64,000 nucleotides of DNA, from NCBI RefSeq assembly GCF_963924675.1, contig NC_089220.1, positions 116,204,697-116,268,696 on the forward strand, written 5' to 3'. Below the pieces are notes generated by a model. It made no database searches. It worked only from the letters and a program-made list of their open reading frames with translations, and was not told the DNA's origin. Origin of the DNA: Phocoena phocoena. Its lineage: Eukaryota; Chordata; Mammalia; Artiodactyla; Phocoenidae. Shown piece by piece: positions 21,901 through 60,212 of the stretch. Position 1 is the first letter of the stretch, and every line of letters begins with the position of its first letter. The translations under genes and the position numbers were made by a program.

Positions 21901-22276
21901 CCCGCGGATCTCTCGCCGCAGCGTTACTGCCCGCTCCAGTGTAGCAGCGCGCACATTCACACACTCACCCAGACCCACACGCTATCCGCGGGGACAGCCC
22001 AGGACCCGCAGAGCCGCGCGCACGCACTCCCTCCGGTGCCGCACACTCCGCACCCGCGCCGCGCGGCATCGGATCCCGCGCCTCGCCGCTCACGCGGCGC
22101 CACCTACCTTTCCAGACAGCGGAGATGCGGGGTCCGTTCCTCGGGTGGCCTTGGGAGGCGGCGACCGTCCAGAGCAGCAGCAGCAGCCGCAGCGGGAACC
22201 CGGACCGAGCCAGCGGACTGGGAACGCGGGCGCGCGGGGCGCCGAGGGAGGCGCATCCGGGCGGAGGCGGTGTCAT
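582..22276 (-). CDS. SEMA7A: SEMA7A, GPI-anchored semaphorin 7A (14 coding exons)
   Basis: Fourteen exons join on the minus strand into 1998 bp, or 665 residues plus stop: 22276-22108, 8438-8287, 7769-7728, 7398-7306, 7092-7008, 6857-6747, 6085-5946, 5345-5161, 4263-4155, 4070-3872, 2017-1890, 1686-1526, 1326-1265, 943-582. Every junction has AG/GT and the phases agree. In order, the protein shows a leucine-rich signal peptide (about 1-43), a Sema propeller (about 50-470) with RGD at 264-266, a cysteine-rich PSI domain (about 488-525), an Ig domain (C565 to C612) and a hydrophobic C-terminal tail ending LLVH, which fits a GPI-anchor signal. Known family role: SEMA7A binds integrin alpha1beta1 through the RGD and plexin C1, and acts in axon growth and T-cell/macrophage signalling. 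It also carries the John Milton Hagen blood group. No lesion is visible and the length is within a residue or so of the human protein as I recall it. Confidence 0.97.
1265..1326 (-). CDS. SEMA7A: SEMA7A coding exon 13: PSI-Ig linker
   Basis: 62 bp encoding [19 protein letters not shown], the linker between PSI and Ig. Acceptor TCCAG, donor GTACAT. One base on the left and one on the right complete codons of the neighbouring exons. Confidence 0.94.
1526..1686 (-). CDS. SEMA7A: SEMA7A coding exon 12: PSI domain
   Basis: 161 bp starting [11 protein letters not shown] and carrying the cysteine-rich PSI core ([20 protein letters not shown]). The donor is GTATGT. The PSI domain links the propeller to the Ig domain. 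Confidence 0.97.
1890..2017 (-). CDS. SEMA7A: SEMA7A coding exon 11
   Basis: 128 bp encoding KGTIHKVVE and [19 protein letters not shown], the last propeller blade. Acceptor TACAG. The donor GGGTGAGC uses the GT that keeps the arginine codon whole. Confidence 0.96.
2320..2520 (-). repeat. MIR SINE fragment
   Basis: In inverse orientation the stretch shows the MIR hallmarks: a gagtcct-type tail region, CACACAGCTGGT and AACTTGCTCAAGGTCA. Confidence 0.8.
2550..2870 (-). repeat. Ancient L1M 3'-end fragment
   Basis: It resembles the 3' region of old mammalian L1 elements, with phrases such as CAGATTTACAGAAAAGTTAC, GTACAAAGAGTTCCC and GTACATAATTATTAA. It is non-coding and strongly diverged. The orientation is inferred. 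Confidence 0.6.
3872..4070 (-). CDS. SEMA7A: SEMA7A coding exon 10
   Basis: 199 bp encoding [17 protein letters not shown] and [11 protein letters not shown], ending HVLYLTT. This is the late part of the Sema propeller. Acceptor CCCAG, donor GTGAGG. Confidence 0.97.
4155..4263 (-). CDS. SEMA7A: SEMA7A coding exon 9
   Basis: 109 bp encoding [17 protein letters not shown] and [13 protein letters not shown]. It contains the sequon NYS. Acceptor CCCAG, donor GTGAGT. Confidence 0.97.
5161..5345 (-). CDS. SEMA7A: SEMA7A coding exon 8, begins with GD of RGD
   Basis: 185 bp opening with [14 protein letters not shown], followed by [10 protein letters not shown] and the highly conserved [15 protein letters not shown] segment, ending in VFSNP plus two bases of a tryptophan codon. 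Donor GTGAGT. Confidence 0.97.
5620..5935. repeat. Imperfect CA-rich tract in SEMA7A intron 7
   Basis: About 300 bp dominated by CACA and CACACG/CTCACA variants on the plus strand. It is a degenerate dinucleotide-type repeat rather than a clean microsatellite. It lies directly downstream of exon 7 in the transcript sense. Confidence 0.7.
5946..6085 (-). CDS. SEMA7A: SEMA7A coding exon 7, ends in the R of RGD
   Basis: 140 bp with [20 protein letters not shown] and [10 protein letters not shown]. The last codon is the arginine of the integrin-binding RGD; glycine and aspartate open exon 8. The sequon NVS is present. Acceptor GTAG, donor GTGAGC. Confidence 0.96.
6698..6731. repeat. CCCAG pentamer repeat at SEMA7A exon 6 donor
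   Basis: Six clean CCCAG units on the plus strand, which the transcript reads as GGGCT repeats. The array begins about 16 bases past the exon 6 donor. Confidence 0.95.
6747..6857 (-). CDS. SEMA7A: SEMA7A coding exon 6
   Basis: 111 bp encoding [20 protein letters not shown] and the following [10 protein letters not shown]. The donor GTGAGT is followed within about 20 bases by a GGGCT pentamer array in the transcribed strand. Confidence 0.96.
7008..7092 (-). CDS. SEMA7A: SEMA7A coding exon 5
   Basis: 85 bp encoding the conserved propeller strand [16 protein letters not shown], ending in phase 1. It contains the potential glycosylation sequon NDT. Acceptor CCCAG, donor GTAGGG. Confidence 0.95.
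7306..7398 (-). CDS. SEMA7A: SEMA7A coding exon 4
   Basis: 31 codons, phase 0 on both sides, with the Sema-family CGTNA core and conserved cysteines ([21 protein letters not shown]). Acceptor GCAG, donor GTGAGA. Confidence 0.96.
7728..7769 (-). CDS. SEMA7A: SEMA7A coding exon 3 (42-bp small exon)
   Basis: This short in-frame exon of 14 codons reads [14 protein letters not shown]. It is phase 0 on both sides, so skipping it would leave the frame intact. Acceptor CTCAG, donor GTGAGT. Confidence 0.94.
7845..7965 (-). repeat. MIR-like fragment
   Basis: It contains GACAGATGAGCAGC and ACATCACACAGGCTG, weakly conserved MIR core motifs, in inverse orientation between SEMA7A exons 2 and 3. Confidence 0.6.
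8287..8438 (-). CDS. SEMA7A: SEMA7A coding exon 2: start of the Sema propeller
   Basis: It encodes residues 57-107, including the conserved stretch [19 protein letters not shown]. It contains an N-glycosylation sequon, NAS, near the end. The acceptor is TTAG and the donor GTGAGC. A 13.7-kb first intron separates it from exon 1. Confidence 0.96.
14690..15065 (-). repeat. MIR SINE, plus a second MIR-like fragment
   Basis: A fairly long MIR copy runs from about 14690 to 14940, with CATTTTACAGATGAGG and CTTGCCCAAGATCACACAGC. It is followed by a second diverged stretch (14960-15065) with GAGGAGACTGAGGCCCAGAG. Both are inverse. Confidence 0.75.
15354..15518 (+). repeat. CHR-type SINE, 3'-truncated
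   Basis: Starts with the CHR head (CTTCCCTGGTGGCGCAGTGG), carries the tRNA-like A and B boxes, and ends at the CAACGGGAGAGG stretch without the usual A-tail. Short direct repeats related to ACCCACCATGGGG flank it. This is the only young SINE in the left 38 kb. Confidence 0.85.
15680..15880 (+). repeat. L2 LINE 3'-end fragment
   Basis: Contains typical L2 tail phrases: a CCTTTAAGACCTAGCCTCA-type start, tandem pyrimidine-rich words and TGTGGGATCCTGAAGG. Diverged and non-coding. Confidence 0.55.
18150..18600 (+). repeat. L2 LINE 3'-end fragment
   Basis: Contains CTTCCAGGAAGCCTTCTCTG, a long pyrimidine-rich stretch and a final CCAGTAAATGATAAATG, the usual order of an L2 tail in plus orientation. 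Confidence 0.6.
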
Positions 22277-32972: not shown

Positions 32973-33110
32973 TCATGGGGCTCCTCCGGCAAAGATGAGC
33001 TCCAGGGCCGCTTGGATGTCCCCCCCAGTGGCTTGCAGGGCCCGCAGGCTCAGCTCATCATCCTGGATGCCCATGTCACGCAGCTGCTGCAGCTGGGGCT
33101 GCCACTGGCT
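32973..33110 (-). CDS. UBL7: UBL7 exon 11: UBA domain and stop
   Basis: 138 bp encoding SQWQPQLQQLRDMGIQDDEL, SLRALQATGGDIQAALELIF and AGGAP, then TGA. This is a three-helix UBA domain. This exon is missing from the inverted copy. Confidence 0.98.
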   Translation of the reverse strand, partial: SQWQPQLQQLRDMGIQDDELSLRALQATGGDIQAALELIFAGGAP

Positions 33111-36100
33111 CTGCAGAAAGACAGGACAGGCAGAAGCTGTTAGTTAGGCTCCTACAGTGACTTGCTTATGTCTGTCCTTTCAGGGGGAGAGAGAAAGGCG
33201 GGTTCCCTCAGTAAAGTTGCTGATGTGAAGTTCCATACAACACAGCGCTTCTAGGAGAACTACAAGAGAGGCTGAGGGTTTAGAGAACAAGTTACAGTAA
33301 AAGTCTTTCCAATAAAAAAGGGGAAAATGTAACATAAGGATCAAAAGAGAAATCACAAAGTACTCAATGTCTAAATTTCAAAAGATTAAGTTTCTTTCTC
33401 CTGCTGTATGTATAGACACACACACAAACGGGTGGGTGGGTACATTTTTAAATTAACTTCGCTTTTCACTATGATACACAGTGAAAAGTCTCGCTCTCAT
33501 CTACTCCCCTCCCCACCCCGATAACGTATTTTATTTTCTTTGAAGAAATACGAATATATATTCCTATATTTACCCTTTCCTTACACCCCTCCTTTTATTC
33601 CCCCAACATATTAATGTATCCTAGAGAGCTCCCTATGCCAATACATAAAGAACTTTTTAATAACTGTATAACATTCCAACTTGTGGATGTCCTGAAATGT
33701 ACAACTGGGCTGTTCCCAGTCTCTGCCATTACAAACAACACTGCAGTGACTGGTTGTGTACAAATCTCATCCTCTACATGCACAAACATCTTCAGGATAA
33801 ATTTTGAGAAATGGGACTGCAAGGAATTACACAGCTTTAAGGGCCATCTGTACTTCCTTCTTCATGAATAGTCTGTTCATGTCTTTTGCCCATTTTTCTA
33901 TGGCGTTCTTGGTCCTAAACCACAAGAACTTCTATAGTTCAGGGAGGTTTTGCCCTTTGTCTGATACGTGCAGATTTCTTGCCCAGTTTGTTATTAGCTT
34001 TCAGACGTCTCTTTTTTTTGGTTGGTTGGTTGGTTGGGTTTGATTTGCTATGCAGCAACGTTCACATTTATTAACTCAAAATATCTTTTACTCTTTATAC
34101 AATGGTTCCTCGATTTTGACTTTCAGCTATGAAAGTCCTTCTCTACCCTAAGAGTTTAAAGAAATTTCATATTTTCAAAGCTTCATCAATATCTCTATCC
34201 CATGCAGAAGGAAGTACACACCTGAGGGAAAAGGCCGTGTTCACACTATGGGAAGGAGAAGGCAGTGGGGATGAAATGCAAATTCAGAGAAGTAGGCAGG
34301 CAAGGGTGAGGATGTGCTGGGCTTTTAAAAAACCGCACAAACCAACTCAAACTCATGTTACAGGCCAGGGAGACACATGAAAGCTTCTGAGCTGGAGAGC
34401 AGAGTGAACAGGCATCAGGATGGGGAAGATGAAGGAATGGAAAAGACCAGCTGTCCACGGGTCCTGCTCCCGTTCCTCTCACTGTCCACCAGGGCCATGT
34501 GGGCTGCCGAAAACCACACGGGCCTGACCCTGTCTCTATCACTTAATGGCTTGATGACCGTGGACAAGTTCCAGAAATGACTTTCATGCCCCAGGCTTAG
34601 GAGCAAAGGAAAGAGAGTGAAGCAAACAGCCTGTGCACAGAGGCATGCAGTAGAATGTGAACCCCTTGCACTTAGCTGCTAGCTAAGCTTCCACATTCCG
34701 CAAGGCAGGGGAGATGGTGTCACTCGCTGCTTAAAATCTTCCATGGCTCCCTGGTGACCACAGGACAAGACTAATCTCCTTACGCAGGCACCCAATGAGG
34801 CCCTCACACTCAGGCTCCTGCTCTCCTTTACTCTGGCTCCATCTCAGGATCCTCCCCACAAGGACACCGCCTTCTGGGCTTGCCTATTTGAGTTTTGTCA
34901 CCTGTACCTCCACATTCACTCAAACAGGTGGCTGGGTCTACCTGGACACCATGTCCCCTCAACCAAACACCCCTTCCCTGCCTGGCTAACCTCTAATTCT
35001 TTGACAGTCAGTCCAAACACCCCTTCCTCAGAAAAGGTTTCCCTGACCTAGGCCCTCACCTCAAGCCTGGGCTGGGCTTCTCACCCTGTTGCTCCCTCAC
35101 TGCAGTAACTGCCTGGCACCCCTCCATGGCAGGGATGAGCACTGGCTCGTCTCTACCCCAGGAGCTGGACCCAGGCCCGGTATATACGTGCTCAAGGCTC
35201 AGTCACCGTTCACAGAATGGATGAGTTGTCTCTTCAATTAAAACTGCCACAAGGATTCAAGCCAGGTGGTCAGCGGCGCCAGGCCGTGGTCACTGGGTGC
35301 AGGAGTGGAAGCCACAGGGACAACTGCCCGTGCTGGGAGCATCCTCTCCTGTCACACTGCCACGCCCCAGCTGTTCCTGGAGCAAAGCAGGCCAAGTGGG
35401 AAGGGCCTCCAGAGAGCAGAAGAAAGCTCAGTGTCCAAAGTAACTAAGAAGCCATGTGAACATCAGGAGTGGGGAAGACTGACCTGAAGGCTGGGCTGCC
35501 CGGAGGCCTGCAGCGCATGCTGTAGAGCTTGGCTGAAGAGATCATTGGTGATGGGCGTCCCTGACTGGACGCCGGATGACACCGGGGAGGTCCCTGACGA
35601 ATGGCCCTAGAGACAAACCAGGGTCAGCGCCACGCTCAGAGACACCTCAGTCTCCCAGCACATATCCACTGCTGTCACATCACCCAGGGTGCCCCTGGGT
35701 GCCCCACGACTGCCTCCCAGCAGGGGCCTGCATGAGACAACCACACAGAGGTACCCAAAAGCTCTCTATGTGGGCGGGAAAGGTTCTGTTCTCTTTTGCT
35801 CCAGGGAGATGGAATGGAGCCCCCGACCTAGCCTAGGACCCAGCACTGGGACAGATGGCCTTGCAAGCTGGAGTGACCGTCACCAGGAATGCTTAAGCCT
35901 GTGATGTCTGGCCACTTTCAGGGACAAGTGAGGGTGTCTTATGTGACGGAAGGTTCTTCCAAAGTGCTGGCAGGAGTTAATCAGACTTCCCGTGATGAAC
36001 CCCAGACTTCTAAGCCCTAAAGGCTGGTGACGGGAAGGTCGCCACTGGGACCTTCTCCCTTAGGGGCCTGGCCTTGATCTTCCCGCCCTCTCTCCATACC

Positions 36101-39100
36101 TGGGTGCCAGGAGTTGGCGTGTGAGAGCTGCTCTCCGGAGTGCTGGCCAGGGCCAGGGCGGTGGCCAGCTCGCTCTGGGTGATAGGTCGGGGCCCGGCAG
36201 CTCCACTGTACCCCAGGGAAGCTGGGCGGGAGCTGGGTGTGCTGCTCGAGGGCGTGGACCTGGCGCTCTGAACAAGAGAGGCACCAAGAATCAGGGAAGC
36301 AGCCCTGTGACGTTCTCAGATGAAGCCCACCCCCGTTCCAGGAACAGTTCTTGGGGAACCTCCCCAAGCTGCCAGGTTCAGACAGCAATAGTATGACATA
36401 GCTGGGTCACCAAAGGGTCTCCTGATCACCTCCCAGCTGGGGCGTGCCAGGTCCCAGGGAGGGGTGCATCCCCAGCGCCATCTCCCCCAAATGGCAGGCA
36501 GCCAGGCCACTTACTGGGTGAAAGTCATCCTCATCATCAGAGAGCCCTTCAAACAGGAAGCCACCTGGAGGAGGGAGAACAGATTTCAGGAGGAAGAACA
36601 GAGGCACAGGCGCAGCTCCAGAATCTCAGCTCTCCCCTTGGAAAATTACAGGACAGATGCACTCCTTGACTCAAATTGAGAGTTCCCAAGGAACGCCCTC
36701 TGCCAGCACTATACATAGCTGCTGAGTAAAGCAAACCCCTGGACCACTGCCCGCTCCCGAGGGGGCCTGTGTTCCACTGTCCTGGGGCTCACCTGGCATA
36801 TCCCGGTACGAGCTGGAGGGCATACCCCGGGAAGAGGAGTCGGCCCCCGGCAGTGGGGTGCTGCCTGCCACCGAGTGCAGAACCAAGACAATGGCATTGA
36901 CCAGAGCCGGGTGAGCAGGCACTAACCTGAGATGGGGCAGGAAGAAACCCAAGTGTGACTAAGAAGGAAAAAGCACCCTTGGCCATGACAGGGATTCTGG
37001 GTGCCCCTAACAACAATCAAGTCACCCACGCCTGCCCTTCAATTTCCCAGTCTTCAGCACTTCCCTCCAGTCGGCTTGTGCCCCTGCTGCTCTGTCCCCA
37101 GGAACAGCAAGGCCTTCACCCCCGGGCCCCCCTGCAGATGCTTCACCTTCCCCTCTGGCAATGCATGATGGGACATGCACAGCCCAGGAGGCTCAGGGGT
37201 CAGTTTCTGGTCTGGACTCCACCACTACTTCACTGGGCAATCTTTGACAGGTCCCTTCTCATTCCAGGCTTTGGATGTTTTCTTCACTTGCAAATAAGGG
37301 GACACAACCTCTACTATCCCTTCCAGCTCTAAAATTTTGGGATGTATGCACCTGTGTCTTTCCCAGCTTAAAATCCTTCAACGGCTCCCTAATATCTACT
37401 GAATGAGATCTAAAGTGAGCATGGCCTGCAAAGCCACCTCCCTCAGAACCTGCTTCATCCCAACATCTCTGCATGCCCCTGCCCTTGGGCTTGTTATTCC
37501 CCCCATAGCCCTTGCTCCTTCTCACCTCCTGACACATTTAGAAGACAGATTTGGGGGATGGGCTGCAACAGCAGAATCCAGGGCAACGATTAGGTTTCTG
37601 GCCCGACCATGAGGAGAGACAGGGTCCCCTTAATAAGATGGGTATACTTACGTATCAAGCATGTTGGGATCAGCAAAGACAGAGAAGAGGTCCTTGTCCT
37701 GCAGAACCCCTGAAGGAGAACAGGGCTCACCTCAGAGACTGGAAATTTAGTCAGATCCAGTGGGGAGAAGAGACTTTCAGGCCTCAGAGCAACCGGCTTA
37801 ACAGGGACGCAAGACTACAAAGCAGCCCTCACGAGAAGAGGGGGAAACAAAGCCCCAGGAGCACAACGACGTGCTCTCCATCTTGCTCCCTACTTGCCCC
37901 CCGCACTTAGGTTACATGCTGTGTACCACTACACCAGCCTCTCTTCCCCTTATCTCTGGGTTCTTCCCTTATCCATCAAGGTGTGCAGGAAGTCTTCCCT
38001 GATGGCTGTGGTTCGGGCTAACAGCTGCCCTCACATGGCTTCCTCACAGTCTCATTTCTGATGTTAGTCAGGCCATATTTTCGCTGTGGGACTGACAACT
38101 CGTGGAGGGCTGGGTGTATGGAATACATCTGGATTATTCCCCCTCCAGCCACAAGACCAGTGATTCTTCACAAGATGGTCAAAGGTTCTTTAAGGTCATT
38201 GCCTCCTCCTGGTTTCTCCTTCTCCAACAGCTCCTATTTCCTTAAGCTCAGCCTTGCACTTACCAAGAGCAATGGGGTCACTGCTGAGGCCTGGGGTGGC
38301 CACAATGATCTGATCCAGAGATTCCTTATTGCTGAGCATCTTAAAGACCTGCAAGAGAAGTGGGGAGGGCTGAGCACTCCAACTAGCTCAATGCACTCAG
38401 CAAATCCCCACACTCTGCTCCCTCTAAGTGCTTGCACATACACCACCGCAATGGGACAGTAGCCCCAGGAAACAGATGAACCTCTTTTTTCTCTGAGATC
38501 ATGGCTTACTGGAGGGGAAACAAACAGTGTAAAAGCAAGAGCACAGTAAACCTTCAATCTCTGGTCTTTTCCCCCATTTACAGCTCTAGTGCTTCTAAAA
38601 TAAAAGCTCTCATTAAAAGCCCAATAACAAAGGTTTCTCTAGATCCCAAAAGTCCTTTTCAATCTCCACACAATTACCATTTCACATTTATATATATTGG
38701 GAAGTTTGCAGCTGTATTAATCTTTTTTATTTATTTATTTTTTGCGGTACGCGGGCCTCTCACTGTTGTGGCCTCTCCCGTTGCGGAGCACAGGCTCCGG
38801 ACGCACAGGCTCAGCGGCCATGGCTCACGGGCCCAGCCGCTCCCCACCATGTGGGATCTTCCCAGACCGGGGCACGAACCCGTGTCCCCTGCATCGGCAG
38901 GCGGACTCTCAACCACTGCGCCACCAGGGAAGCCCTGCAGCTGTATTGATCTTGATTATCGACTCTCCTATAGAAAGACATCAGTGCATTTTCCCAGTGA
39001 GGAAATCCTGGTAAGGAGTGGGGGGCAGGCAGTTCAGCCAAAGTCAAAGAATGAGGCCCAGCAGAAACAGTATATGCATCCTTTGCTGTAACCATATTCA

Positions 39101-42100
39101 TTCCATGAGGCCAACGTCAGGAGAGGTTGTATCATTTTCATTAGAGGGAGTCAACAATGCCTAGCTGAGAGTCTCTCTGGGGGAAGATAGGGCTCTACTG
39201 AGAGCCACAGACATGGCAAAAACTCCCCAAGGAACTCTTGGGAGCCTTGGCAACCGGCTTCCAGCTCCCTCTCTACACCACTTCAACCCCTCTCGAGCAG
39301 GCCTGGCAAGCATCTCGCAGGGGGCTCAGCACATACTCACCGCCTCCCTGTAGGAGGAGCTGCTGTGCAGGGCAGTGTGCAGCACCCGGAACTCCCGCAG
39401 GGCAGCCACTTTGTCCACAGGTTCTGGGGACAAGACACTCAGTTACCCTACAGCCCCGCCCTGCCCCTGCTGCAGACGCACCTCACTTCAGCAAGTGCCC
39501 AGGTGCAGGTTCCCTTCCCTCAGACCCCCACTAAAAATGGGCACCCGATCAGAAAAAAGCATTTATGTCATAGATGTGAGAACTGCACTCCTTTTAAGTA
39601 TCTTCAGTAGATAAGCAAATTCAAGTTCCAGCAGAGGGGAATCTTACCACATGAAAGAGACTGTTCTGACCAATATCCCACTGCAGGAGTTCTAGGCTTT
39701 TCACATTTGAAAAGGAGGAGGGTATAAGGAACCCAGCAGACTTTTGTGCAATGATTTAAAATAAGTGCTGCAAGCCATCTGAACAATATGGAGCTATGTT
39801 GACACAATATGTTAAGAGAAAGAAATAGAACATAGTTGTATGCGCATTCTCTAGTAAAACTTTGTGATGTGTGTCAGTGTGCACGTGGGCCCAGGCTGGA
39901 AGGGAACAAGCTAGGGTGACAGGATCAGGGGTAACTCTTTTCTTTTGGATATTTTCTTTCAGGCCTCTGTAATATTATTTTGATTAAAAAAAACAAATAC
40001 AACAATGACCAAGAAAACACTGTACTTCTAGGGTTCTTAACAAACTCATCACATGTCCAAAAACAAGCATGTCACTGGGACTCAAAGCTCCTTTTTGATC
40101 TTTGGACACAATGACTCATATACATGGGAACGTTTAGCAGTTGTCTCAGTTTTACTTGGTCACTTTACTATTTAGGACATCAGCCCATCTCACAGGTAAA
40201 GAAATTTGGGTAAAAGAAGGGGGAGTAGGCAGGAAGTCCACCCTGGATCACACTTTTAAAAGTGTGGAGACCCTCACCCAAAACGGCTACTTGTGATTAT
40301 ATGGACTGTGTACTGCCCAAATCCAGACGCACCATTCCCAGAGCAAGGTGAACAGCATCCCTAGGGTTCAGTGTGGCAACCACATCCTTACCTATAGCTC
40401 TAATCATGAGGGTTGTCTCTTTTGAAACATATTCACCTCAAGTAAATCACCTAATTTATTCATTCAACAAACCTGTGCTAAGCATTTACGCCATGGTTTT
40501 GGAGTAAATCTTGTTTTGTGCAAGACACAGGAATACAAAAAGTGAGTGTCCCTGCCATCAAGGAACTTAACAGTAGGAGAAATGAGACTGAATTAAACAC
40601 ACACACACAATTACAAAATACCATGCTGAGGACTTCAACAGAGGCACGGACCACAGCGAGGGCATTAGGAACATGGAGGCAGACAGCCATTACTGAGAGG
40701 GAGGCCCACACAGAGCTGCCTCCCAGAAGAGAACGTTTGAGAGGGATTATTTAAGGTAAAGCAGATGTTTACTGGGAAGAGAAGGTATTCCAGGCCTAAG
40801 TGAGAACGAGTGCAAAGGCACGGAAGAATATAAGAGGTGCTTCGAAGGAACAGTAAGTCGTTCTTGGTGGCTGGAGCCCGGGGTACACACCCCTGCTCAA
40901 ACAGCAGGCCTAAGTGAGATCCTAAAGGAATTTGTAACCCTCTGCGGAGAACCACCAAAAGGATCCAGGTGGGAAGGAAGAAACTGACACCTTTTCCTCC
41001 TACAGGATCTAATCTGGTGGGAGATAAAAGAAATGTGCTTCCTTTTGGAAGAACACTCAAGGATAAAATACCCAAAATGCTGTCACAAAAGTTTATTTTC
41101 AAATCTAAAAGTTTATTTTCACCTCCCAACAAAAAGTCCGTTTGTTTCAAAAATAAATCTCCAGGCAGAAGGAGGGATGAAAAGGACTCAAAATCTTAAG
41201 CCCACAATCAGCTAAGAGTTATGCTTGTCTCTTTAACATCTCTGAGCTAGTTTCACCCTCTGGAAGTGAGAGGCAGCCAGCTCAGTGGAAAGAACATGGG
41301 CTCTTGAGCCAGGAAAACCTGGATTCACATCCCAGCTCTTACAGTCATTTTCTAAGCAGGTGACCTTGAATAAATACCTTTCTAACCCGCTTTTTCTTGT
41401 CTATAAAATGCTAATGCTGTTACCCTACCCTGCTGAGCCACTGTAATGATTAAATGAGATACCAAAGAGAAACAATCTGGCTGGAAGAAGCAACAAATGC
41501 TACTTTCCTTCTGTCAATCCCCTCCAGCCAAAGATCAGAGGGGTACACCTACAGTTGAGCAAGTTGCGTTTACTGCTCTTACAGAGAGAATGCCACCACG
41601 AGAACCATGGGGCATCTCAATAAGAGGGAGTCAGAAAGAACTTACAGGATTTGGGCTTTGGTTGGGTGACTTGGCAGGTGAAGTTTAAGGAAGCAGGGTT
41701 TTACTCTGGACTAGAGGCTGTCAGGAAGTATGATTATGATCACGTATCTTAATAATTCTTATCTAGAAGGAAGGAAAACTAGCGCAAGGTGAAAGCTGTA
41801 ATTGGTAAAGAAGCAGCAGTCACTCATAATTGCCAGGATAGAGGGATATTTGGTCATTTTTCTGGTTTGGACAATGTTCATGTTTTTGTCTCTGTTCAGA
41901 AATGAGAAGAATCTTGTTTTTGTCTTGATCCATTACAGTCCCAGAGTGAGTGGCCTTGTAGATGTTGGTGACCTGTGAAATTGTTCATGTTTCAAGGCCT
42001 AGCTGAAGGCCAGGCCAGCCCCCAGATGTCAGAGACTGCCTTTCTCTTTCTCACTTCCCATCAGGGTACAAAAGAAGATCTTTTGTCCTTTATGTTTAGA

Positions 42101-44665
42101 ATTGAAAAGAGGAAAAATTTCAAGCTAATAACCAGTCAAAGCAATCGTGAACATTATTAAAATATGTCAAACTGCCCGTTTTTAACAAAGCTAATCTCTT
42201 ATACAGCTTAGCTTTATCTTTGGGGAGGCTTTTAAAACACAGATGCAAAATTTAAATTCCAAGCAGCACCTTTTATTAATAAATCAAAAAAGCATTAGAG
42301 GCTTTGTATGTTTTCTCCAAGAGCTACTTTCATACCACTCAAACATTTTCAAACTTCAGGAAAATAAATTATCAGTATAGCAGGAGTGAGGTGACTGAAC
42401 AAATCACCGCCTGCAACAGTTTGTGCGAAGATTTGCTAACATGAGAGCACACTACAGCATTTAGAGGAAAGCAGGGAGTTTCCAGCTTCTTTCTAATGAG
42501 AACAACAATAACAAAAATACAAAGTTCACTCCCTAAAGGAATTTAAATAGACACATCCTCCCCACCCCATTAAAACAGTGGGTAATGAACTTAAAAGTAG
42601 AGAAACAAATCCCTTTCTGTTAGTGGCATTGGCAGCAAGATCAAAATTGTACTCTGTTAATCAATGTGGTCTAATCCAATAAGTAATAAAGATATCCTCT
42701 ATTATCATCTCAGTAAATCACCCCTTTGTTCCACCCAGGCCCTTGCTTCAAGAACACACACAGACCCTCCTTCCAGGCCCTTGCCTCAAGAACACACACA
42801 GACCCTCCTTCCCTTGTAGATATTACAGAAGCCCTGCCTGTCTTACAGACAGCACTCTCTCACCTGGTTTCTGATCAGGCTCAGGCCAGGACTTGCGCAG
42901 AACATGGACTGTGGACCCAGGCTGAATGCCATAGAAGTCAAGGGTCTGATCATCTTTTAGCTTCCGGCCACAGTAGATCAGATCTAAAAAAAAAAAAGAA
43001 CTGTTCATTTATATTTTGCTCCTCAAAACAATTTAAATGATTTTTGTCCCCTAAGAACCTTATCTTGATTGGACAGATAGCTAGAGAATGATATATGCTT
43101 TTAAAGGTACTCTTACTTAATAAATACATTTTTAAGTTTTTTTATTTGGCTGTGTTGGGTCTTCACTGCTGCTGGCGGGCTTTCTCTAGTTGAGGCGAGC
43201 AGGGGCTCCTCTTCGTTGCAGTGCGCAGGCTTCTCATTGCGGTGGCTTCTCTTGTTGCAGAGCACGGGCTCTAGGTGCATGGGCTTCAGTTGCTGTGGCA
43301 CATGGACTCAGGAGTTGTGGCACACAAGCTTAGTTGCTCCGTGGCATGTGGGATCTTCCCGGACCAGAGCTCAAACCCGTGTCCCCTGCATTGGCAGGCG
43401 GATTCTTAACCACTGAGCCACCAGGGAAACCCAATAAATACATTTTAATAACAACTGTTAGCGAGCACAAACTGATAAAACACAGAATCTATGCAGGAAA
43501 ACTCTAGAGCTTAACACCATGGAGACTGCTCGATTTAAATGAATGGGAAAATGCAACAATAAAAAAGGATGAACCCCATATTTTTATGACTGAAAACACA
43601 CTTTTTGCCAGCTTATACCATTTTGTCAGTTTATATGACATTGAGTTTATAATATAATTTAATTATATTCACTTTCACTGCCGGGGCCTGGGTTCAATCC
43701 CTGGTGGGGGAACTAAGATCCCACAAGCCACGCAGGGAGGGGAAGGAAGGGAGAGAGGGAGAGAGGGAGGGAGGGAGGGAGGGAGGAAGGAAGGAAGGAA
43801 GGAAGGAAGAAATTATATTTAAATTCCTTCTTCCTCCACTTAGAATGCCCTTGCCATCTGTCCTTTTTCACTGCCTTACCTCTAACCAACCAAAAATCCT
43901 TCTAACCACCCCTTAATACCCAGCTCAAATGCCATATACTGAGGGGCTTTCCCTAGCCAGCTCCTCCTTCCTAACCTAAATTCTTTTTTTTTTTTTTTTT
44001 TTGGCTGTGCCGGGTCTTAGTTGCAGCACGCAGGCTTCTTAGTTGGGGCATGCGAATTCTCAGTTGCAGCACGCATGCAGGATCTAGTTCCCCGACCAGG
44101 GATTGAACCCAGGCGCCCTGGATTGGGAGCACGGAGTCTTACCCATTGGACCACCAAGGAAGTCTCCCTACCCCAAACTCTTGCTCTATCAGAGAAATAA
44201 TTCAACAATGTCATAGTTAAGGAATGTTGTGATAAAGTAGCTCAGTATAACGAAGGACTAAAATGGCAACAATAGTTTCATTATGATTTGTGTTTCTATT
44301 CACCCAACAACAATCACTTCCATTATGATTTGTGTTTCTATTCACCCAACAACAATCAACTCCCTGGAGTGTTAACATTAGGAGACAAATCCCAAACTCT
44401 TAATTTACCCTTTAATTCCAGAATTATTCTCCCCCAAAAGAGATCAGAGCAGCAGCCCATCCTTAGTCCACAGAGGCTCACCGATCAGTTCGGGGTCTGG
44501 AACAGACTCCTGGAGTTTGCCAGCAATGAGCTGCTTCAGAAATGAAATACTATAGCCTCCCAGTGAGTATTCTCCAAGCTCTGTCTCTGGCAACCGAAGA
44601 ATAGATTTGGGGGCAAGTGGCTGGTCAGCCAGCTTCACCGCCAGGTGCCAATCTGAGAGAGACAT
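32973..44665 (-). CDS. UBL7: UBL7, ubiquitin-like protein 7 (10 coding exons)
   Basis: Ten exons join on the minus strand into 1143 bp, giving 380 residues: 44665-44482, 42983-42864, 39423-39341, 38348-38264, 37709-37652, 36926-36793, 36564-36515, 36267-36100, 35606-35484, 33110-32973. All borders have AG/GT and the phases fit. The protein has an N-terminal ubiquitin-like domain (about residues 18-98; CGRKLKDDQTLDFYGI is the diagnostic core), an acidic serine/proline-rich linker with SDDEDDFHP, and a C-terminal UBA domain (about 333-377; DMGIQDDELSLRALQATGGD). The UBL-plus-UBA architecture is that of ubiquitin-shuttle-like proteins. UBL7 is also described as an interferon-linked modifier of antiviral signalling, which I cite from general knowledge. 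The frame is intact and the length equals the human protein as I recall it. A near-identical inverted copy of exons 7-10 lies at 54.93-56.85 kb. Confidence 0.97.
33440..34190 (-). repeat. Ancient L1M fragment in UBL7 intron 10
   Basis: Inverse L1 3' region with GTTCATGTCTTTTGCCCATTT, TTTGCCCTTTGTCTGATA and TTCAGCTATGAAAGTCCTT-type phrases. Non-coding and diverged. Confidence 0.7.
34690..35215 (+). repeat. L2 LINE 3'-end in UBL7 intron 10
   Basis: L2 tail motifs such as AAAATCTTCCATGGCTCCCT, CCAAACACCCCTTCCTCAGA and GCAGTAACTGCCTGGCA. The source segment of the inverted duplication ends inside it, at about 34938. Confidence 0.6.
35484..35606 (-). CDS. UBL7: UBL7 exon 10
   Basis: 123 bp (41 codons) encoding GHSSGTSPVSSGVQSGTP and NDLFSQALQHALQASGQPSL. 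Acceptor CTCTAG, donor GTCAGT. Duplicated at 56176-56298. Confidence 0.97.
36100..36267 (-). CDS. UBL7: UBL7 exon 9
   Basis: 168 bp (56 codons), serine/threonine/proline-rich linker including STPSSRPASLGYSGAAGPRP and ITQSELATALALASTPE. Acceptor TTCAG, donor GTATGG. Duplicated at 55515-55682. Confidence 0.97.
36515..36564 (-). CDS. UBL7: UBL7 exon 8
   Basis: 50 bp encoding GGFLFEGLSDDEDDFHP, an acidic motif. Acceptor TCCAG, donor GTAAGT. Duplicated without change at 55218-55267. Confidence 0.97.
36793..36926 (-). CDS. UBL7: UBL7 exon 7
   Basis: 134 bp encoding LVPAHPALVNAIVLVLHSVA and SSSRGMPSSSYRDMP. The inverted copy at 54.93 kb begins inside this exon, at about 36841-36848. Donor GTGAGC. 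Confidence 0.96.
37190..37540 (+). repeat. MIR then L2 fragments in UBL7 intron 6
   Basis: 37190-37290 resembles MIR (GTCTGGACTCCACCACTAC, then CTTCACTTGCAAATAAGGGG). 37330-37540 resembles an L2 tail (CCCAGCTTAAAATCCTTCAA). Confidence 0.5.
37652..37709 (-). CDS. UBL7: UBL7 exon 6
   Basis: 58 bp encoding VLQDKDLFSVFADPNMLD, with two bases shared at each end. Acceptor TTCAG, donor GTAAGT. Confidence 0.96.
38264..38348 (-). CDS. UBL7: UBL7 exon 5
   Basis: 85 bp encoding VFKMLSNKESLDQIIVATPG and LSSDPIAL. Acceptor TGCAG, donor GTAAGT. Confidence 0.97.
38726..38935 (-). repeat. CHR-type short SINE in UBL7 intron 4
   Basis: Inverse copy ending at the head (CACCAGGGAAGCCC), with the short-subtype body. 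Target-site duplications 38708-38724 and 38937-38953 share GCAGCTGTATT-ATCTT with one mismatch. Confidence 0.95.
39341..39423 (-). CDS. UBL7: UBL7 exon 4
   Basis: 83 bp encoding EPVDKVAALREFRVLHTALH and SSSSYREA. Acceptor CCCAG, donor GTGAGT. Confidence 0.96.
40440..40600 (-). repeat. L2 3'-end fragment in UBL7 intron 3
   Basis: ATTCATTCAACAAACCTGTG and TGAGTGTCCCTGCCATCAAG are the inverse of the standard L2 tail. Confidence 0.6.
41280..41500 (+). repeat. MIR SINE in UBL7 intron 3
   Basis: Forward MIR: GAACATGGGCTCTTGAGCCA, CACATCCCAGCTCTTACAG and the GTAATGATTAAATGAGAT tail. Confidence 0.8.
42739..42813 (+). repeat. 38-bp tandem duplication beside UBL7 exon 3
   Basis: Two units, each starting GCCCTTGC and running through CAAGAACACACACAGACCCT, differ at one or two positions. 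The array lies 50 bp past the exon 3 donor in the transcript sense. Confidence 0.93.
42864..42983 (-). CDS. UBL7: UBL7 exon 3: rest of UBL domain
   Basis: 120 bp with DLIYCGRKLKDDQTLDFYGI and STVHVLRKSWPEPDQKP. The acceptor AG follows a pure run of twelve T residues with a short pyrimidine extension. Donor GTGAGA. Confidence 0.97.
43134..43432 (-). repeat. CHR-type long SINE in UBL7 intron 2
   Basis: Inverse, nearly full-length long-subtype copy. Perfect target-site duplication AATAAATACATTTT at 43119-43132 and 43433-43446. Confidence 0.95.
43680..43810. repeat. SINE fragment followed by GGGA/GGAA microsatellite
   Basis: 43680-43735 matches an internal CHR-type stretch with a B-box-like GGTTCAATCCCTGGT. 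It continues into a purine tract of GGGA, AGAG and GGAA repeats up to about 43808. Confidence 0.85.
43982..44166 (-). repeat. Older CHR-related SINE in UBL7 intron 2
   Basis: Inverse tRNA-type SINE with a long T run at 43984-44003, CGACCAGGGATTGAACCC as the inverse B box, and a CACCAAGGAAGTC head. Confidence 0.85.
44280..44359 (+). repeat. 42-bp tandem duplication near UBL7 exon 2
   Basis: The unit starting ATTATGATTTGTGTTTCTAT occurs twice back to back, differing only at the end. It lies about 120 bp past the exon 2 donor in the transcript sense. Confidence 0.93.
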
Positions 44666-49994: not shown

Positions 49995-50113
49995 TGTTTT
50001 GTTTTGGCCATGGTGTGTGGCATATAGAATCTTAGTTCACCAAACAGGGATCAAACCCGTGCCCCCTACAGTGAAAGTGTGGAGTCTTAAGCACTAGACC
50101 ACAAGGGATGTCC
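49995..50113 (-). repeat. Older CHR-related SINE, partial
   Basis: Inverse, about 120 bp, with the inverse head CCACAAGGGATGTCCC. Direct repeats CTCAAAGTGTTATCTT and CTCAAAATGTTATCTT flank it. Confidence 0.88.
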
Positions 50114-50199
50114 CTCAAAATGTTATCTTAGGTATTTTCTCAAGTTTTGTTAAGTCAACTTTATTTAGAAATAATTTACATACAATAAAATGCATGCTT

Positions 50200-50559: not shown

Positions 50560-50579
50560 GTATGCTTAAAAGGAATTGG

Positions 50580-50940: not shown

Positions 50941-51700
50941 TGTAGGTCCTTGTCAAAAATGTATATTGTGAATATCTTCTCTCAGTTCGTGGCTTGTATT
51001 TTTATTCTCTTAATGGGATTTTTTTTTAATTTCTTGAAAGTCTAATTTATGAAATTTTATTTTGATGGGTAGAGCTTTTTGTGTCCTATTTTAAAAATCT
51101 CTGCCCTAGGGCTTCCCTGGTGGTGCAGTGGTTGAGAGTCCGCCTGCCGATGCAGGGGACACGGGTTCGTGCCCCGGTCCGGGAAGATCCCACATGCCAC
51201 GGAGCGGCTGGGCCCGTGAGCCATGGCCGCTGAGCCTGCGCGTCTGGAGCCTGTTGCTCCGCAACGGGAGAGGCCACAACAGTGAGAGGCCCACGTATCG
51301 CAAAAAAAAAAGAAAAAAATCTCTGCCCTAATTATGAAGATATTTTCCTATGCTTTCTTCTGTAAGTTTTATCTTTCACATTTAGGTCTATGATTAATTT
51401 CATATTAATTTTTATGTATAAAGTGAGAAAGGAATCAAGATTCTTATTTTCCATAGGGTATCAATTGATGAGAACTACTTTTTTTTTAATCCCATCCCCA
51501 CTGAATTTTACTGGCAGCTTTGTCATAAATAAGGTGACTGTTATCTATTGGTCCATTTCTGACTGTATTCTGTCCCACTAATGTATTTTTATATCCTTAT
51601 GCCACTAACTGTGCAACTTGATTTCTGTAGCTTTAGAGTAGGTCTTGGCATCTGGTAGCATAAGCCCTCCAAATTTATTTTGCTTTAACATGGCTCTATC
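50940..51700 (-). repeat. L1M ORF2/3' fragment, interrupted by a SINE
   Basis: Inverse L1 with GTGTCCTATTTTAAAAATCT before the SINE and TTTAGGTCTATGATTAATTT plus CTGTAGCTTTAGAGTAGGTC after it. Full of stops and frameshifts. Confidence 0.8.
51109..51314 (+). repeat. CHR-type short SINE inside an L1M
   Basis: Complete copy with A-rich tail and a perfect 16-bp target-site duplication ending CTCTGCCCTA at 51093-51108 and 51315-51330. Confidence 0.97.
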
Positions 51701-51884
51701 ACTAATAGAGGACAATTGTTAACTTTTTTAATGTTTCTAAAAATATAATTTTATTGAATTAAATAAATTTTGTATTCAACAAAATTTAGATTATACTGCA
51801 TACGTTAGTAAACTGCATAATTCACTTAACTTGAATATTTCCCCATGTGCTCAAATTGTCTTTGAGAATGTGATATTTTAAAAT

Positions 51885-52400
51885 ACTTTTATTTTAAAGT
51901 AGTTTCAAGTTTGCAATAAAGTTGCAAAAATAGTATGAAATAATTCCCTCTTAACCACCCAAAGTCCCCAACTGTTAACATTTTATAACATTTACCCTAT
52001 CATTTTTTCTCACCCTCTCTCTGTATATATTATTCTCCCACCCCCATCCCCAAGCTGTTTGAAAGCAAGTTGTAGATATGATGCCCCATTACCCTTAAAT
52101 ATTTCAGTGGCTATTTCCTGAAAACAAGGACACACTCTCCTACCTACCACAGTACAACCCATTAGAATCAAGAAATTAATACAATTCTACCATCTAATCC
52201 ACAGATGTAATTTAAATGTCATCAACTGTCCCAGGTAGGTGGAGACTGATCACCTCACTGCTGTTTTCATAAACTATTTGGGAGATTTTCACAAAGTTTG
52301 TCATATTAGTCATTAATCCAAACAGTTTTGGTTTCTTTTAGTGGTGAATAGTATTTAGAATCCAAGTCTGGGTGTGTTTATTGTCCCTGAGATGTCATTA
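51885..52400 (-). repeat. Ancient L1M 3'-end fragment
   Basis: AAAGTAGTTTCAAGTTTGCA, AAGTTGCAAAAATAGTATGA and CAACTGTTAACATTTTATAA match an old L1 3' region in inverse sense. A short separate L1 tail, TTTTTGTTGGAGTATAGTTT, occurs at 52535-52560. Confidence 0.65.
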
Positions 52401-52874
52401 TTTCCAGTTCCTCTCAGTGGATAGACCTATGAAATACATATTTATGCACACAAACCCATTCATCTATATTTCTGTTTCATATACATGTTACATATATGAA
52501 ATAATATGTATATGTTCTTTTTTTCATTAATTTTTGTTGGAGTATAGTTTATTATATATGTTCTAATACCAATACTTCAAATTCCAATTCAACCCTACAT
52601 AGTCTTTTCTAGTCTTCCCCTCCTCTATAATTTTACCTTTCTTCTCCAAAATGGCTCCCATTTTCCACAATATATTTACCTGCATTTGCTTCTATTGAAA
52701 TCCATGGTAACCGTCACAGTGGAGCCTCTTCAACTTGTGGCTGAGTCATTTTAACACTTAACCTAAAATTTTCTAATCATTGCCTTACTATCTGGCATGA
52801 CAAGGGTTCCAGGCTCATCTTTACATTTCCTGCCCCAAACACAACAATGAGCCATTTCTTCAAAAAAGCTCAGA

Positions 52875-53885
52875 TAGGGACTTCCCCAGTGGCGAAATGG
52901 ATAAGAATCCGCCTGCCAATGCAGGGGACACAGTTTCGATCCCTGGTCCGGGAAGATCCCATATGCCGTGGAGCAACTAAGCCCACAAGCCACAACTACT
53001 GAGCCTGCGTGCCACAACTAATGAGCCTGCGTGCCACAACTACTGAAGCCCGTGCACCTAGAGCCCATCCTCCACAACAAGAGAAGCCACCACGAGGAGA
53101 AGCCTGTGCACCACAAGGAAGAGTAGCCTCCACTCGCTACAACTAGAGAAAGACTTCACACAGCAACGAAAACCCAACACAGCCAAAAATGAATAAAATT
53201 AAATCTTTATAAAAATAAATAAGTAAAGCAACTATAGGGCTTCCCTGGTGCCACGTGGTTAAGAATCCCCTGCCAACGCTGGGGACATGGGTTCGAGCCC
53301 TGGTCCGGGAAGATCCCACATGCCGCAGAGCAACTAAGCCCATGTACGACAACTACCGAGCCTGTGCTCTAGAGCCCATGAGCCACAACTATTGAAGGCC
53401 GCGCGCCTAGAGCCCGTGCTCCACAACAATAGAAGCTACCGCAGTGAGAAGGCCACGCACTGCAAGGAAGAGTAGCCCCTGCTCACCGCAACTAGAGAAA
53501 GCCTGCGCAGCAACGAAGACCCAACACAGCCAAAAATAAATAAATAAAATAAATAAATTTATAAAGAATAAATGAAGCAACTATACACCAATTTTTTTTT
53601 ATACCCCAATTTAAAAAAGAAATTTTTTTTAAAGGGTACAGTACACTAAGAGGTCCGAACTGAATTGCATTTCCAGGTTCACATGAGAACAAACCTTCAC
53701 CCCTGAGTGAACCAGAGATTCTAGGGATCCAACAGGCTGAGGTTAACCCAGGGCCAAATTGAACATTCAGGGCAGTTCGCAAAGTATTGAGCTTCATAGC
53801 CTAAGCATACATCTCTACACGTGGATTAGAGCCTGATCAGCTCTAAAGGGGACAGGGGGTGGGGGGAATTAAAAAAAATAAATTT
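52875..53885 (+). repeat. CHR-type SINE with extended 3' segment, hosting a second SINE
   Basis: A long-subtype SINE starts at about 52876. The 12-mer AAAAGCTCAGAT occurs just before it (52864-52875) and again only after 53885, beyond an A-rich stretch. The unit between holds the SINE body, a nested second SINE (53237-53574) and about 310 bp of other DNA. Confidence 0.65.
53237..53574 (+). repeat. Nested CHR-type long SINE
   Basis: Complete copy with perfect 11-bp direct repeats AAGCAACTATA at 53226-53236 and 53575-53585. It lies in the tail of the SINE beginning near 52876. Confidence 0.95.
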
Positions 53886-54061
53886 AAAAGCTCAGATGGG
53901 TTTTAGTGGGAAATTGAATTTCAAGACCACAATCTGGGCACTAGGGATGCTTATTTCTACTGGATTGGTCATTATTTCTAAGCTGCTTCAGTGGAGAGAG
54001 CTAGGGAGAGAGCTAGATATATGTCTATATATAGATCTATGCTTATAAAGATAGAAATACA

Positions 54062-54300
54062 GGGCTTCCCTGGTGGCGCAGTGGTTGGGAGTCCGCCTGC
54101 CGATGCGGGGGTTCCCTGGTGGCGCAGTGGTTGGGAGTCCGCCTGCCGATGCGGGGGGCGCGGGTTCGTGCCGCGGTCTGAGGGGATCCCGCGTGCCGCG
54201 GAGCGGCTGGGCCAGTGAGCCAAGGCCGCTGGGCCTGCGCGTTCGGGGCCCGTGCTCCGCGGCGGGAGGGGCCGCAGCGGTGAGGGGCCCGTGTACCGCA
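54062..54300 (+). repeat. CHR-type short SINE with duplicated 46-bp head
   Basis: The stretch starting TTCCCTGGTGGCGCAGTGG is present twice in tandem (54066-54111 and 54112-54157). The body is unusually GC-rich and lacks an A-tail. No clear target-site duplication. Confidence 0.93.
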
Positions 54301-54419
54301 AATATGTAACCTTTTGTATATTACATGTTTCTTTCCTTTCGCACAATGAGAATCCTAGTTCTCAAGAAAATAGGGGATTCCCTCTAGCTATTTTACACAT
54401 GGTAGTATATTTATGTCAA

Positions 54420-54665
54420 ACCTAATCTGCCAATTCGTCCCACCCTCCCCTTCCCCACTGTGTCCACATGTCCATTCTCTACGTCTACGCCTCTATTACT
54501 GCCTTACAAAAAGTTTCATCTGTACCATATTTCTAGATTCCACATATACGTGTTAATATACGATATTTGTTTTTCTCTTTCTGGCTTACTTCACTCTGTA
54601 TGACAGTCTCTAGGTCCATCCACGTCTCTGCAAATTGATATTTTGTATACCAAATTATAAATATA
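54420..54665 (-). repeat. L1 3'-region fragment
   Basis: TCTCTAGGTCCATCCACGTC and GGCTTACTTCACTCTGTATG are the inverse of a well-known artiodactyl/cetacean L1 stretch. It ends close to the GC-rich block that precedes the UBL7 duplicate. Confidence 0.85.
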
Positions 54666-54933
54666 TTTTATACTCTGTTATCTGGAAAGGTAGGAAGCGT
54701 GGCGCAAGTGGCGGGGCGCAAGTGGCGGGGCGCAAGATTAGATGCTGTCTGGGTGAGTGAGGACTGTGCGGTGCCGCAGGAAGTGCGTGCAAATGGCTCT
54801 GCGGGTCCCAGGCTGTCCCTACGGGGAGGGGAGCGTGTGGGTCTGGGTGAGTGTGTGAGTGTGCAAGCCGCCACACCAGAGAGAGCTGTAAGGCTCAAAG
54901 TATGCCTGCAGCCAGTAGTCACAGAACAGGGCT
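54666..54933. other. Orphan GC-rich block
   Basis: This 270-bp stretch contrasts with its AT-rich L1 flank. It opens with three copies of a CGCAAGTGGCGGGG-like 14-mer (54700-54735) and continues with GTGAGTG/GTGTGAGTGTG words. It matches neither the repeats named here nor any other part of this window by eye. Origin unknown. Confidence 0.7.
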
Positions 54934-56846
54934 GACTCCTCTTCCCGGGGCATGCCCTCCAGCTCGTACCGGGATATGCCAGGTGAGCCCCAGTGGAACA
55001 CAGGCCCCCTCGGGAGCGGGCAGTGGTCCAGGGGTTTGCTTTACTCAGCAGCTATGTATAGTGCTGGCAGAGGGCGTTCCTTGGGAACTCTCAATTTGAG
55101 TCAAGGAGTGCATCTGTCCTGTAATTTTCCAAGGGGAGAGATGAAAATATGAATTTGGAGAGTAACTAGAGCTGAGATTCTGGAGCTGCGCCTGTGCCTC
55201 TGTTCTCCCTCCTCCAGGTGGCTTCCTGTTTGAAGGGCTCTCTGATGATGAGGATGACTTTCACCCAGTAAGTGGCCTGGCTGCCTGCCATTTGGGGGAG
55301 ATGGCGCTGGGGATGCACCCCTCCCTGGGACCTGGCACGCCCCGGCTGGGGGGTGATCGGGAGACCCTTTGGTGACCCAGCTATGTCATACTATTGCTGT
55401 CTGAACCTGGCAGCTTGGGGAGGTTCCCCAAGAACTGTTCCTGGAACGGGGGTGGGCTTCATCTGAGAACGTCACAGGGCTGCTTCCCTGATTCTTGGTG
55501 CCTCTCTTGTTCAGAGCGCCAGGTCCACGCCCTCGAGCAGCACACCCAGCTCCCGCCCAGCTTCCCTGGGGTACAGTGGAGCTGCCGGGCCCCGACCTAT
55601 CACCCAGAGCGAGCTGGCCACCGCCCTGGCCCTGGCCAGCACTCCGGAGAGCAGCTCTCACACGCCAACTCCTGGCACCCAGGTATGGAGAGAGGGCGGG
55701 AAGATCAAGGCCAGGCCCCTAAGGGAGAAGGTCCCAGTGGCGACCTTCCCGTCACCAGCCTTTAGGGCTTAGAAGTCTGGGGTTCATCACGGGAAGTCTG
55801 ATTAACTCCTGCCAGCACTTTGGAAGAACCTTCCGTCACATAAGACACCCTCACTTGTCCCTGAAAGTGGCCAGACATCACAGGCTTAAGCATTCCTGGT
55901 GACGGTCACTCCAGCTTGCAAGGCCATCTGTCCCAGTGCTGGGTCCTAGGCTAGGTCGGGGGCTCCATTCCATCTCCCTGGAGCAAAAGAGAACAGAACC
56001 TTTCCCGCCCACATAGAGAGCTTTTGGGTACCTCTGTGTGGTTGTCTCATGCAGGCCCCTGCTGGGAGGCAGTCGTGGGGCACCCAGGGGCACCCTGGGT
56101 GATGTGACAGCAGTGGGTATGTGCTGGGAGACTGAGGTGTCTCTGAGCGTGGCGCTGACCCTGGTTTGTCTCTAGGGCCATTCGTCAGGGACCTCCCCGG
56201 TGTCATCCGGCGTCCAGTCAGGGACGCCCATCACCAATGATCTCTTCAGCCAAGCTCTACAGCATGCGCTGCAGGCCTCCGGGCAGCCCAGCCTTCAGGT
56301 CAGTCTTCCCCACTCCTGAAGTTCACATGGCTTCTTAGTTACTTTGGACACTGAGCTTTCTTCTGCTCTCTGGAGGCCCTTCCCACTTGGCCTGCTTTGC
56401 TCCAGGAACAGCTGGGGCGTGGCAGTGTGACAGGAGAGGATGCTCCCAGCACGGGCAGTTGTCCCTGTGGCTTCCACTCCTGCACCCAGTGACCACGGCC
56501 TGGCGCCGCTGACCACCTGGCTTGAATCCTTGTGGCAGTTTTAATTGAAGAGACAACTCATCCATTCTGTGAGCAGTGACTGAGCCTTGAGCACGTATAT
56601 ACCGGGCCTGGGTCCAGCTCCTGGGGTAGAGACGAGCCAGTGCTCATCCCTGCCATGGAGGGGTGCCAGGCAGTTACTGCAGTGAGGGAGCAACAGGGTG
56701 AGAAGCCCAGCCCAGGCTTGAGGTGAGGGCCTAGGTCAGGGAAACCTTTTCTGAGGAAGGGGTGTTTGGACTGACTGTCAAAGAATTAGTTAGAGGTTAG
56801 CCAGGCAGGGAAGGGGTGTTTGGTTGAGGGGGCATGGTGTCCAGGC
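54934..56846 (+). pseudogene. Inverted partial duplicate of UBL7 (3' part of exon 7 to intron 10)
   Basis: This unprocessed copy corresponds to 36848-34938 in reverse orientation. It contains the end of exon 7, exon 8 (55218-55267), exon 9 (55515-55682), exon 10 (56176-56298), the introns between them and the start of intron 10. Splice sites are intact and the encoded residues are the same; in exon 7 I saw one synonymous change. Differences from the source include a few single bases, a 31-bp extra stretch at 55141-55171, a 5-bp absence near 54990 and a 4-bp insertion near 56790. Promoter, exons 1-6 and the UBA exon are absent, so it cannot make UBL7 alone. Introns rule out retroposition. Confidence 0.95.
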
Positions 56847-57033
56847 AGAGGCAGCCAACCTTAGAAATGGCCTATGTCAGTCCACCTGTGACATTCCACC
56901 CCTGAGACTAGTTTGAAATCATGGTGTCTGCCACACTCTGGATATTGTTGATGGGGTTAATAATGAAGCTTGGCTTAATGTCTCATCCTATACCTAAATT
57001 CTCAGCCAGATTTATCACCCTCAGAAAAGTAAT

Positions 57034-57177
57034 TTTTTTTTTTTTAATTTTGGCTGTGCTGGCACGCAAGATTTTTTGCCCCGCGGCATGTGGGATCTTA
57101 GTTCCCCAACCAGGAATGGAACCTGCGTCCGCTGAATTGGAAGGTAGATTCTTAACCACTGGACCACCAGGGAAGTC
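57034..57177 (-). repeat. Older CHR-related SINE
   Basis: Inverse copy with T run and head CCAGGGAAGTCC. Perfect 16-bp direct repeats beginning CCCTCAGAAAAG at 57018-57033 and 57178-57193. Confidence 0.95.
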
Positions 57178-57299
57178 CCCTCAGAAAAGTAATCCTTATT
57201 TTCTTCCTGGTATCATTATCAGAAAACTCTGGTGAAAGTTAATCAGGCCATGAGTCTTAGCTATATGGTCCTAATGTAGCTATGATTCATCTCACTCTC

Positions 57300-60089: not shown

Positions 60090-60212
60090 AAAATTTTATT
60101 TTTGGCCACACCGTGTGGCTCGTGGGATCTTAGTTCCCCGACCAGGGATTGAACCCAGATCCTCAGCAATGAGAGTGCAGAGTCCTACCACTGAACTGCC
60201 ATGGAATTCCCA
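60090..60212 (-). repeat. Older CHR-related SINE, partial
   Basis: Inverse copy directly after the preceding SINE, giving a tail-to-tail pair. Contains CCGACCAGGGATTGAACCC and an eroded head. Confidence 0.85.

Follow-up and report, generated by a model that had tools for sequence, protein, structure and literature searches.

The window analysed here, a stretch of 64,000 nucleotides from Phocoena phocoena (contig NC_089220.1), contains an inverted, intron-bearing copy of part of the gene UBL7 and, directly beside it, a far more worn inverted fragment of the gene SEMA7A. Our best reading, to which we assign a probability of about 0.5, is that the two belong to an old composite insertion whose UBL7 part has been homogenised through gene conversion. 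Positions 54673-56857 would then be a single composite templated insertion of ~2.2 kb, assembled from two inverted pieces taken from 18-33 kb away by way of either a circle or tandem duplication of ~21.9-36.8 kb or two template switches during break-induced replication. The SEMA7A piece, being too short for efficient conversion, would record the true age of the insertion, and the 1.9-kb UBL7 piece would later have been homogenised with the intact gene by non-crossover gene conversion. Performing no coding work alone, the insertion would act on UBL7 in two ways, by exchanging sequence with exons 7-10 through conversion and by offering an inverted repeat for recombination.

The parent gene is identified as UBL7 by a Pfam ubiquitin domain above the cut-off (residues 40-92 of the protein) together with the match of its last coding exon to the known UBA structure of ubiquitin-like protein 7 (2cwb, E 3e-24); the Pfam UBA model fell just under its own cut-off (20.9 versus 22.4 bits). 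Translation begins at 44665 on the minus strand. Ten coding exons were identified and exon 1 was not located, and the exon numbers 7-10 used throughout presume a single non-coding first exon. A CpG-rich stretch at 46.3-47.2 kb is the presumed UBL7 promoter, and the UBL7 copy lies ~7.7 kb beyond it.

The inverted duplication is confirmed in the sequence. BLASTN of the window against itself aligned the copy with UBL7 on opposite strands over 1,934 columns at 97.26% identity (bit score 3246). Chance is excluded as the source of the likeness, and a more sensitive self-search found no third copy of the UBL7 segment within the window. Segmental duplications are stretches of at least 1 kb that share at least 90% identity and do not belong to a repeat family, and the copy, with 1,929 bp at the BLASTN identity given above, qualifies as one within the window. 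In an affine-gap alignment, the copy and the gene differ by 13 substitutions in 1,894 columns, or 0.69% (95% interval 0.37-1.17%), and by four indels (-5, +31, -19, and +4 bp in the copy relative to the gene). The copy retains introns 7-9 and part of intron 10, and its introns and exons are equally similar to those of the gene. Exons 8-10 (341 bp) match letter for letter, with the AG and GT splice sites retained. The portion of exon 7, which ends at 36793 in the gene and at 54982 in the copy, carries two differences (at 54933 and 54951) that are synonymous in the UBL7 frame (GCC/GCT and GGT/GGC). Missing from the copy are the UBL7 promoter, the start codon, the acceptor of exon 7, and the UBA-bearing exon 11. 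The 31-bp segment unique to the copy has a short AGAG-like repeat at its flanks, and the gene may as easily have lost this segment as the copy gained it. Among the literature matches listed for UBL7 duplication, none appears from its title and the opening lines of its abstract to describe such a copy, and a literature search on UBL7 in cetaceans returned no match.

These results uphold the description in the initial annotation of this DNA, and its interpretation in part; it had described a near-identical, intron-containing, inverted copy in UBL7 sense, with intact splice sites, unchanged exon 8-10 coding, and three in-frame exons. The alignment that it had proposed, of the UBL7 segment against the reverse complement of the copy region, confirmed the duplication. 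Its figure of about 1% difference was approximately right, and its count of three small indels was one too few (5, 31, 19, and 4 bp). The distance of 18 kb that it gave from the gene holds for the parent exons (36846 to 54929); measured to the gene itself, the copy is 10.3 kb upstream of the start codon. Finally, it had offered recent origin or gene conversion as explanations, which is the right pair of options, and had overlooked the adjacent SEMA7A fragment at 54673-54895. With that fragment taken into account, an old composite with later conversion is no less likely than a recent duplication.

Table 1. Coordinates of the copied segments and of their parent sequences within the 64,000-nucleotide window.
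Feature	Position	Strand	Basis or remark
Worn inverted copy of SEMA7A exon 1 end, splice donor, and intron 1 start	54673..54895	+	source 22124-21920 (-)
Filler between the copied pieces (33 bp)	54896..54928		without match elsewhere in the window
Inverted UBL7 copy, exon 7 (partial) to intron 10 (partial)	54929..56857	+	1,894 aligned columns, 13 substitutions, 4 indels
Copy exon 7, partial (54 bp)	54929..54982	+	alignment; donor kept, no acceptor
Copy exon 8	55218..55267	+	identical to UBL7
Copy exon 9	55515..55682	+	identical to UBL7
Copy exon 10	56176..56298	+	identical to UBL7
Parent segment in SEMA7A (exon 1 end, intron 1 start)	21920..22124	-	alignment
Parent segment in UBL7 (part of exon 7 to intron 10)	34929..36846	-	BLASTN and refined alignment
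UBL7 coding span	32973..44665	-	ten coding exons, 380 aa, spliced without internal stop

The fragment beside the copy reproduces the end of the coding part of SEMA7A exon 1 (22276-22108, minus strand), which we take to be this exon from its position and from the SEMA7A start, and the beginning of intron 1. Two exons further downstream in the parent gene resemble the solved structure of Semaphorin-7A (3nvq, E 3e-13 and 2e-47). The local alignment score between fragment and source is 196, and none of 200 Markov-resampled sequences exceeded 64. The splice donor is preserved (GT at 54690-54691). The fragment is heavily worn: it differs from its source at 23 of 145 non-CpG sites (15.9%, interval 10.3-22.8%) and at 21 of 59 CpG sites, its CpG count has dropped to 13 from 29 in the source, and the alignment contains four gaps (14, 1, 2, and 3 bp). 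A short GC-rich tandem repeat is present at 54694-54731 (units like AAGTGGCGGGGCGC) and is absent from the SEMA7A source, where it corresponds to the 14-bp gap.

Both pieces are inverted relative to their sources and stand 33 bp apart. A sensitive self-search of the window, with repeat families screened out by coverage, returned 19 low-copy pairs at E < 1, of which only the SEMA7A and UBL7 pairs are strong (the remaining 17 reach an E value of 4.5e-5 at best). Read along the copy strand, SEMA7A comes first, then the filler and UBL7; on the source strand, UBL7 precedes SEMA7A by 12.8 kb (34929 to 22124). This reversal of order rules out a collinear duplicate that carries a deletion. The permuted order of the source segments is what a circular intermediate leaves behind, and two template switches would give the identical picture; judged by its order, the arrangement would fit the joint of a circular or tandemly duplicated segment spanning ~21.9-36.8 kb as well as it would fit template switching, the two being indistinguishable here. 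More than one nearby template and inverted copies are likewise the marks of templated insertions of the MMBIR/FoSTeS type, to which the locus would belong if both pieces arrived in a single event.

The junctions add further detail. At its right end, the UBL7 copy loses homology gradually, over 12 bp, and this right-edge extension is improbable by chance (P 0.002), with a borderline value at the left edge (P 0.05); homology beyond the right end was tested and is unsupported (P 0.38). The filler at 54896-54928 has no 18-mer match with up to two mismatches elsewhere in the window, and as a worn continuation of UBL7 exon 7 or of SEMA7A intron 1 it aligned no better than shuffled sequence (P 0.52 and 0.67, respectively). 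Retroposition, which would have produced a processed pseudogene, is ruled out by the kept introns, the absence of poly-A at the ends of the insertion, and the absence of a target-site duplication (no common word of at least 8 between 54600-54700 and 56830-56960). The flank from the right end of the UBL7 copy to the next SINE (56858-57040) is without match elsewhere in the window, so the insertion may exceed the length described here.

The two pieces have diverged from their sources to very different degrees. The UBL7 piece differs at 9 of 1,792 non-CpG sites (0.5%) and at 4 of 102 CpG sites, and the contrast with the SEMA7A piece at non-CpG sites (23/145 versus 9/1,792) is extreme (Fisher P 4e-20). 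Such unequal divergence points to either conversion or two events, and if both pieces arrived together, the UBL7 piece must have undergone conversion. At non-CpG sites, the K2P distance of the SEMA7A piece is 0.18, which would mean an age of some 40-90 million years if substitutions accrue at 2.2e-9 to 1.0e-9 per site per year; this age is rough and depends on the rates assumed.

The spread of differences along the UBL7 piece is uneven, which favours conversion. Its longest identical run is 758 bp (P 0.0036 when all 17 events are counted, P 0.022 for the 13 substitutions), and this run retains a P value of 0.013 when the last three edge changes are left out; the dispersion of events gives P 0.038. 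With noncoding positions only, the longest run has P values of 0.011 for events, 0.039 for events without the last three, and 0.056 for substitutions alone. Six of the 13 substitutions fall within the outer 30 bp at either end of the piece (P 1e-6). This edge excess is weakened by its dependence on the bases furthest out: with 5 bp removed from the left and 13 bp from the right, two of nine substitutions lie 25 bp or less from an end (P 0.02), and broader margins are non-significant (P 0.08 at 50 bp, P 0.24 at 100 bp). The GC bias of the differences (8 to 2, unpolarised) is also non-significant (P 0.11). Coding selection as the cause of the similarity was rejected, as the introns match as well as the exons; the lack of any change in exons 8-10 is no significant departure from expectation, which we estimate at 2.3 changes per 341 bp at 0.69%. 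Mammalian conversion tracts mostly extend over a few hundred bp and seldom exceed 1 kb, according to PMC3961182. Homogenising 1.9 kb nearly end to end would therefore need repeated or unusually long events that started before the arms had diverged much. In its strongest form, which we consider rather unlikely, the preferred reading has the UBL7 fragment exchanging sequence over tens of millions of years with the gene, 18 kb distant, and offering a reserve template for exons 7-10, with selection leaving only non-crossover exchange.

The alternative with the best claim, which we regard as tentative but possible, holds that two independent events occurred at the same place, perhaps a break-prone site: an old insertion of the inverted SEMA7A fragment and a recent insertion of inverted UBL7 exons 7-10. 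Gene conversion is unnecessary in that case, the 0.69% divergence extends across the entire UBL7 piece, the ends are mostly sharp, and the mismatches at the right end could represent imperfect microhomology at the junction; the UBL7 piece would be roughly 1.6-3.4 million years old (our own estimate, assuming 2.2e-9 and 1.0e-9 substitutions per site per year). However, the younger piece would have had to land within 33 bp of the window's only other strong local duplication and in the same orientation, a coincidence that we estimate at ~1 in 250 to 1 in 1,000 unless the site is a hotspot, and the differences along it are unevenly spread. A single recent event might instead have brought in UBL7 exons 7-10 along with a SEMA7A fragment that was already worn at its unseen place of origin. 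That proposal accounts for adjacency and unequal wear without conversion, and the filler and flanks lacking a source in the window are in keeping with it, but it requires a third SEMA7A copy, of which there is none within the window, and we consider it improbable.

An assembly artefact, in which an alternative allele or a chimeric UBL7 read was placed reversed and 18 kb away, has to be weighed because the locus is judged from assembled sequence alone. It appears slightly less probable still, given that 13 substitutions plus 31- and 19-bp indels in 1.9 kb are above the usual difference between alleles, and that the segment ends within unrelated sequence, on one side next to the ancient SEMA7A fragment. 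Least probable of all, and in our view very doubtful, is that the copy is a working partial gene, transcribed and with exons 8-10 spliced into an RNA that has its own role. The splice sites and frame of exons 8-10 are intact, the donor at 54690 is preserved, and transcription could start as a divergent transcript from the UBL7 promoter or be joined by splicing from the SEMA7A-like donor; the plus orientation would suit transcription outward from the CpG-rich stretch at 46.3-47.2 kb. Against these features, the copy lacks the UBL7 promoter, its 130-aa ORF matches no Pfam family, and exon identity is not above intron identity.

The spliced copy has an ORF of 130 aa from an internal Met, which matched no Pfam family at E values up to 0.1, and the copy has neither the start codon and full exon set nor the UBL and UBA domains of a functional UBL7 paralogue. 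Splicing of the SEMA7A-like donor to copy exon 8 is a possibility in principle; RNA from the copy could be expected to yield at most a linker fragment. The inverted arms enclose a spacer of ~18 kb that holds the 5' part of UBL7, and in the model a crossover between the arms would invert ~18 kb (36.8-54.9 kb) and leave UBL7 without its UBA exon. The modelled product joins exons 2-7 to copy exons 8-10 and reads into intron 10, giving a protein of 341 residues that stops six residues past exon 10. Non-crossover conversion spares UBL7 this loss of the UBA exon, and selection against arm crossovers would leave mainly non-crossover exchange.

The event belongs to a known kind. Cattle colour-sidedness reportedly arose by serial translocation through circular intermediates (Durkin et al. 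2012), and it shares with this locus a segment order permuted as across a circle joint; it reportedly involves hundreds of kb moved between chromosomes, whereas the present case concerns ~2.2 kb within one locus, and a circle is one of two readings. Templated insertions arising through microhomology-mediated break-induced replication, including complex germline cases that use several templates, are described in PMC8421209. As in that account, the copies here are inverted relative to templates in the same chromosome region. The search in that study covers insertions no longer than a read, from templates no more than 100 bp away, compared with pieces of ~0.2 and 1.9 kb and templates 18-33 kb off in the window, and any microhomology at the junctions here is putative. 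Interlocus gene conversion in segmental duplications, of which RHCE/RHD (spelled RCHE/RHD in the source) is an example forming a tandem inverted pair, is treated in PMC4467073; its pairs are likewise nearby near-identical copies exchanging sequence, an exchange demonstrated there with population variants and deduced here from one sequence. Inverted repeats also mediate recurrent inversions, e.g., the FLNA-EMD inversion HsInv0389 (PMC3961182), in which near-identical inverted arms flank a gene-bearing spacer as they do here. Unlike at HsInv0389, no inversion is seen in the window, and the predicted one would truncate UBL7.

Other features of the neighbourhood were also recorded. Downstream of UBL7, at 31660-31708, two perfectly matched 22-bp arms form an inverted repeat around a 5-nt loop (fold z-score -9.3), which looks like a small inverted templated insertion in the same neighbourhood; a scan of positions 20000-60000 for arms of 20 or more separated by 120 or less found one other pair only, an overlapping palindrome at 25783-25814. 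Three tRNA-Gly- or tRNA-Glu-like calls of 29-36 bits (49300-49372, 50035-50108, and 60133-60205) are probably SINE heads and not tRNA genes, since all three overlap matches to the SINE at ~57083-57204.

If the UBL7 piece is merely a young insertion beside an old one, the locus is an ordinary local duplication. If it is a composite insertion with later conversion, the SEMA7A scrap would act as a clock that separates the age of the insertion from the rate of conversion at one locus, and conversion between short inverted repeats would be put to a natural test there. A gene-truncating inversion of 18 kb would be predicted, and apparent UBL7 variants in this lineage may be the result of conversion or of mismapped reads.
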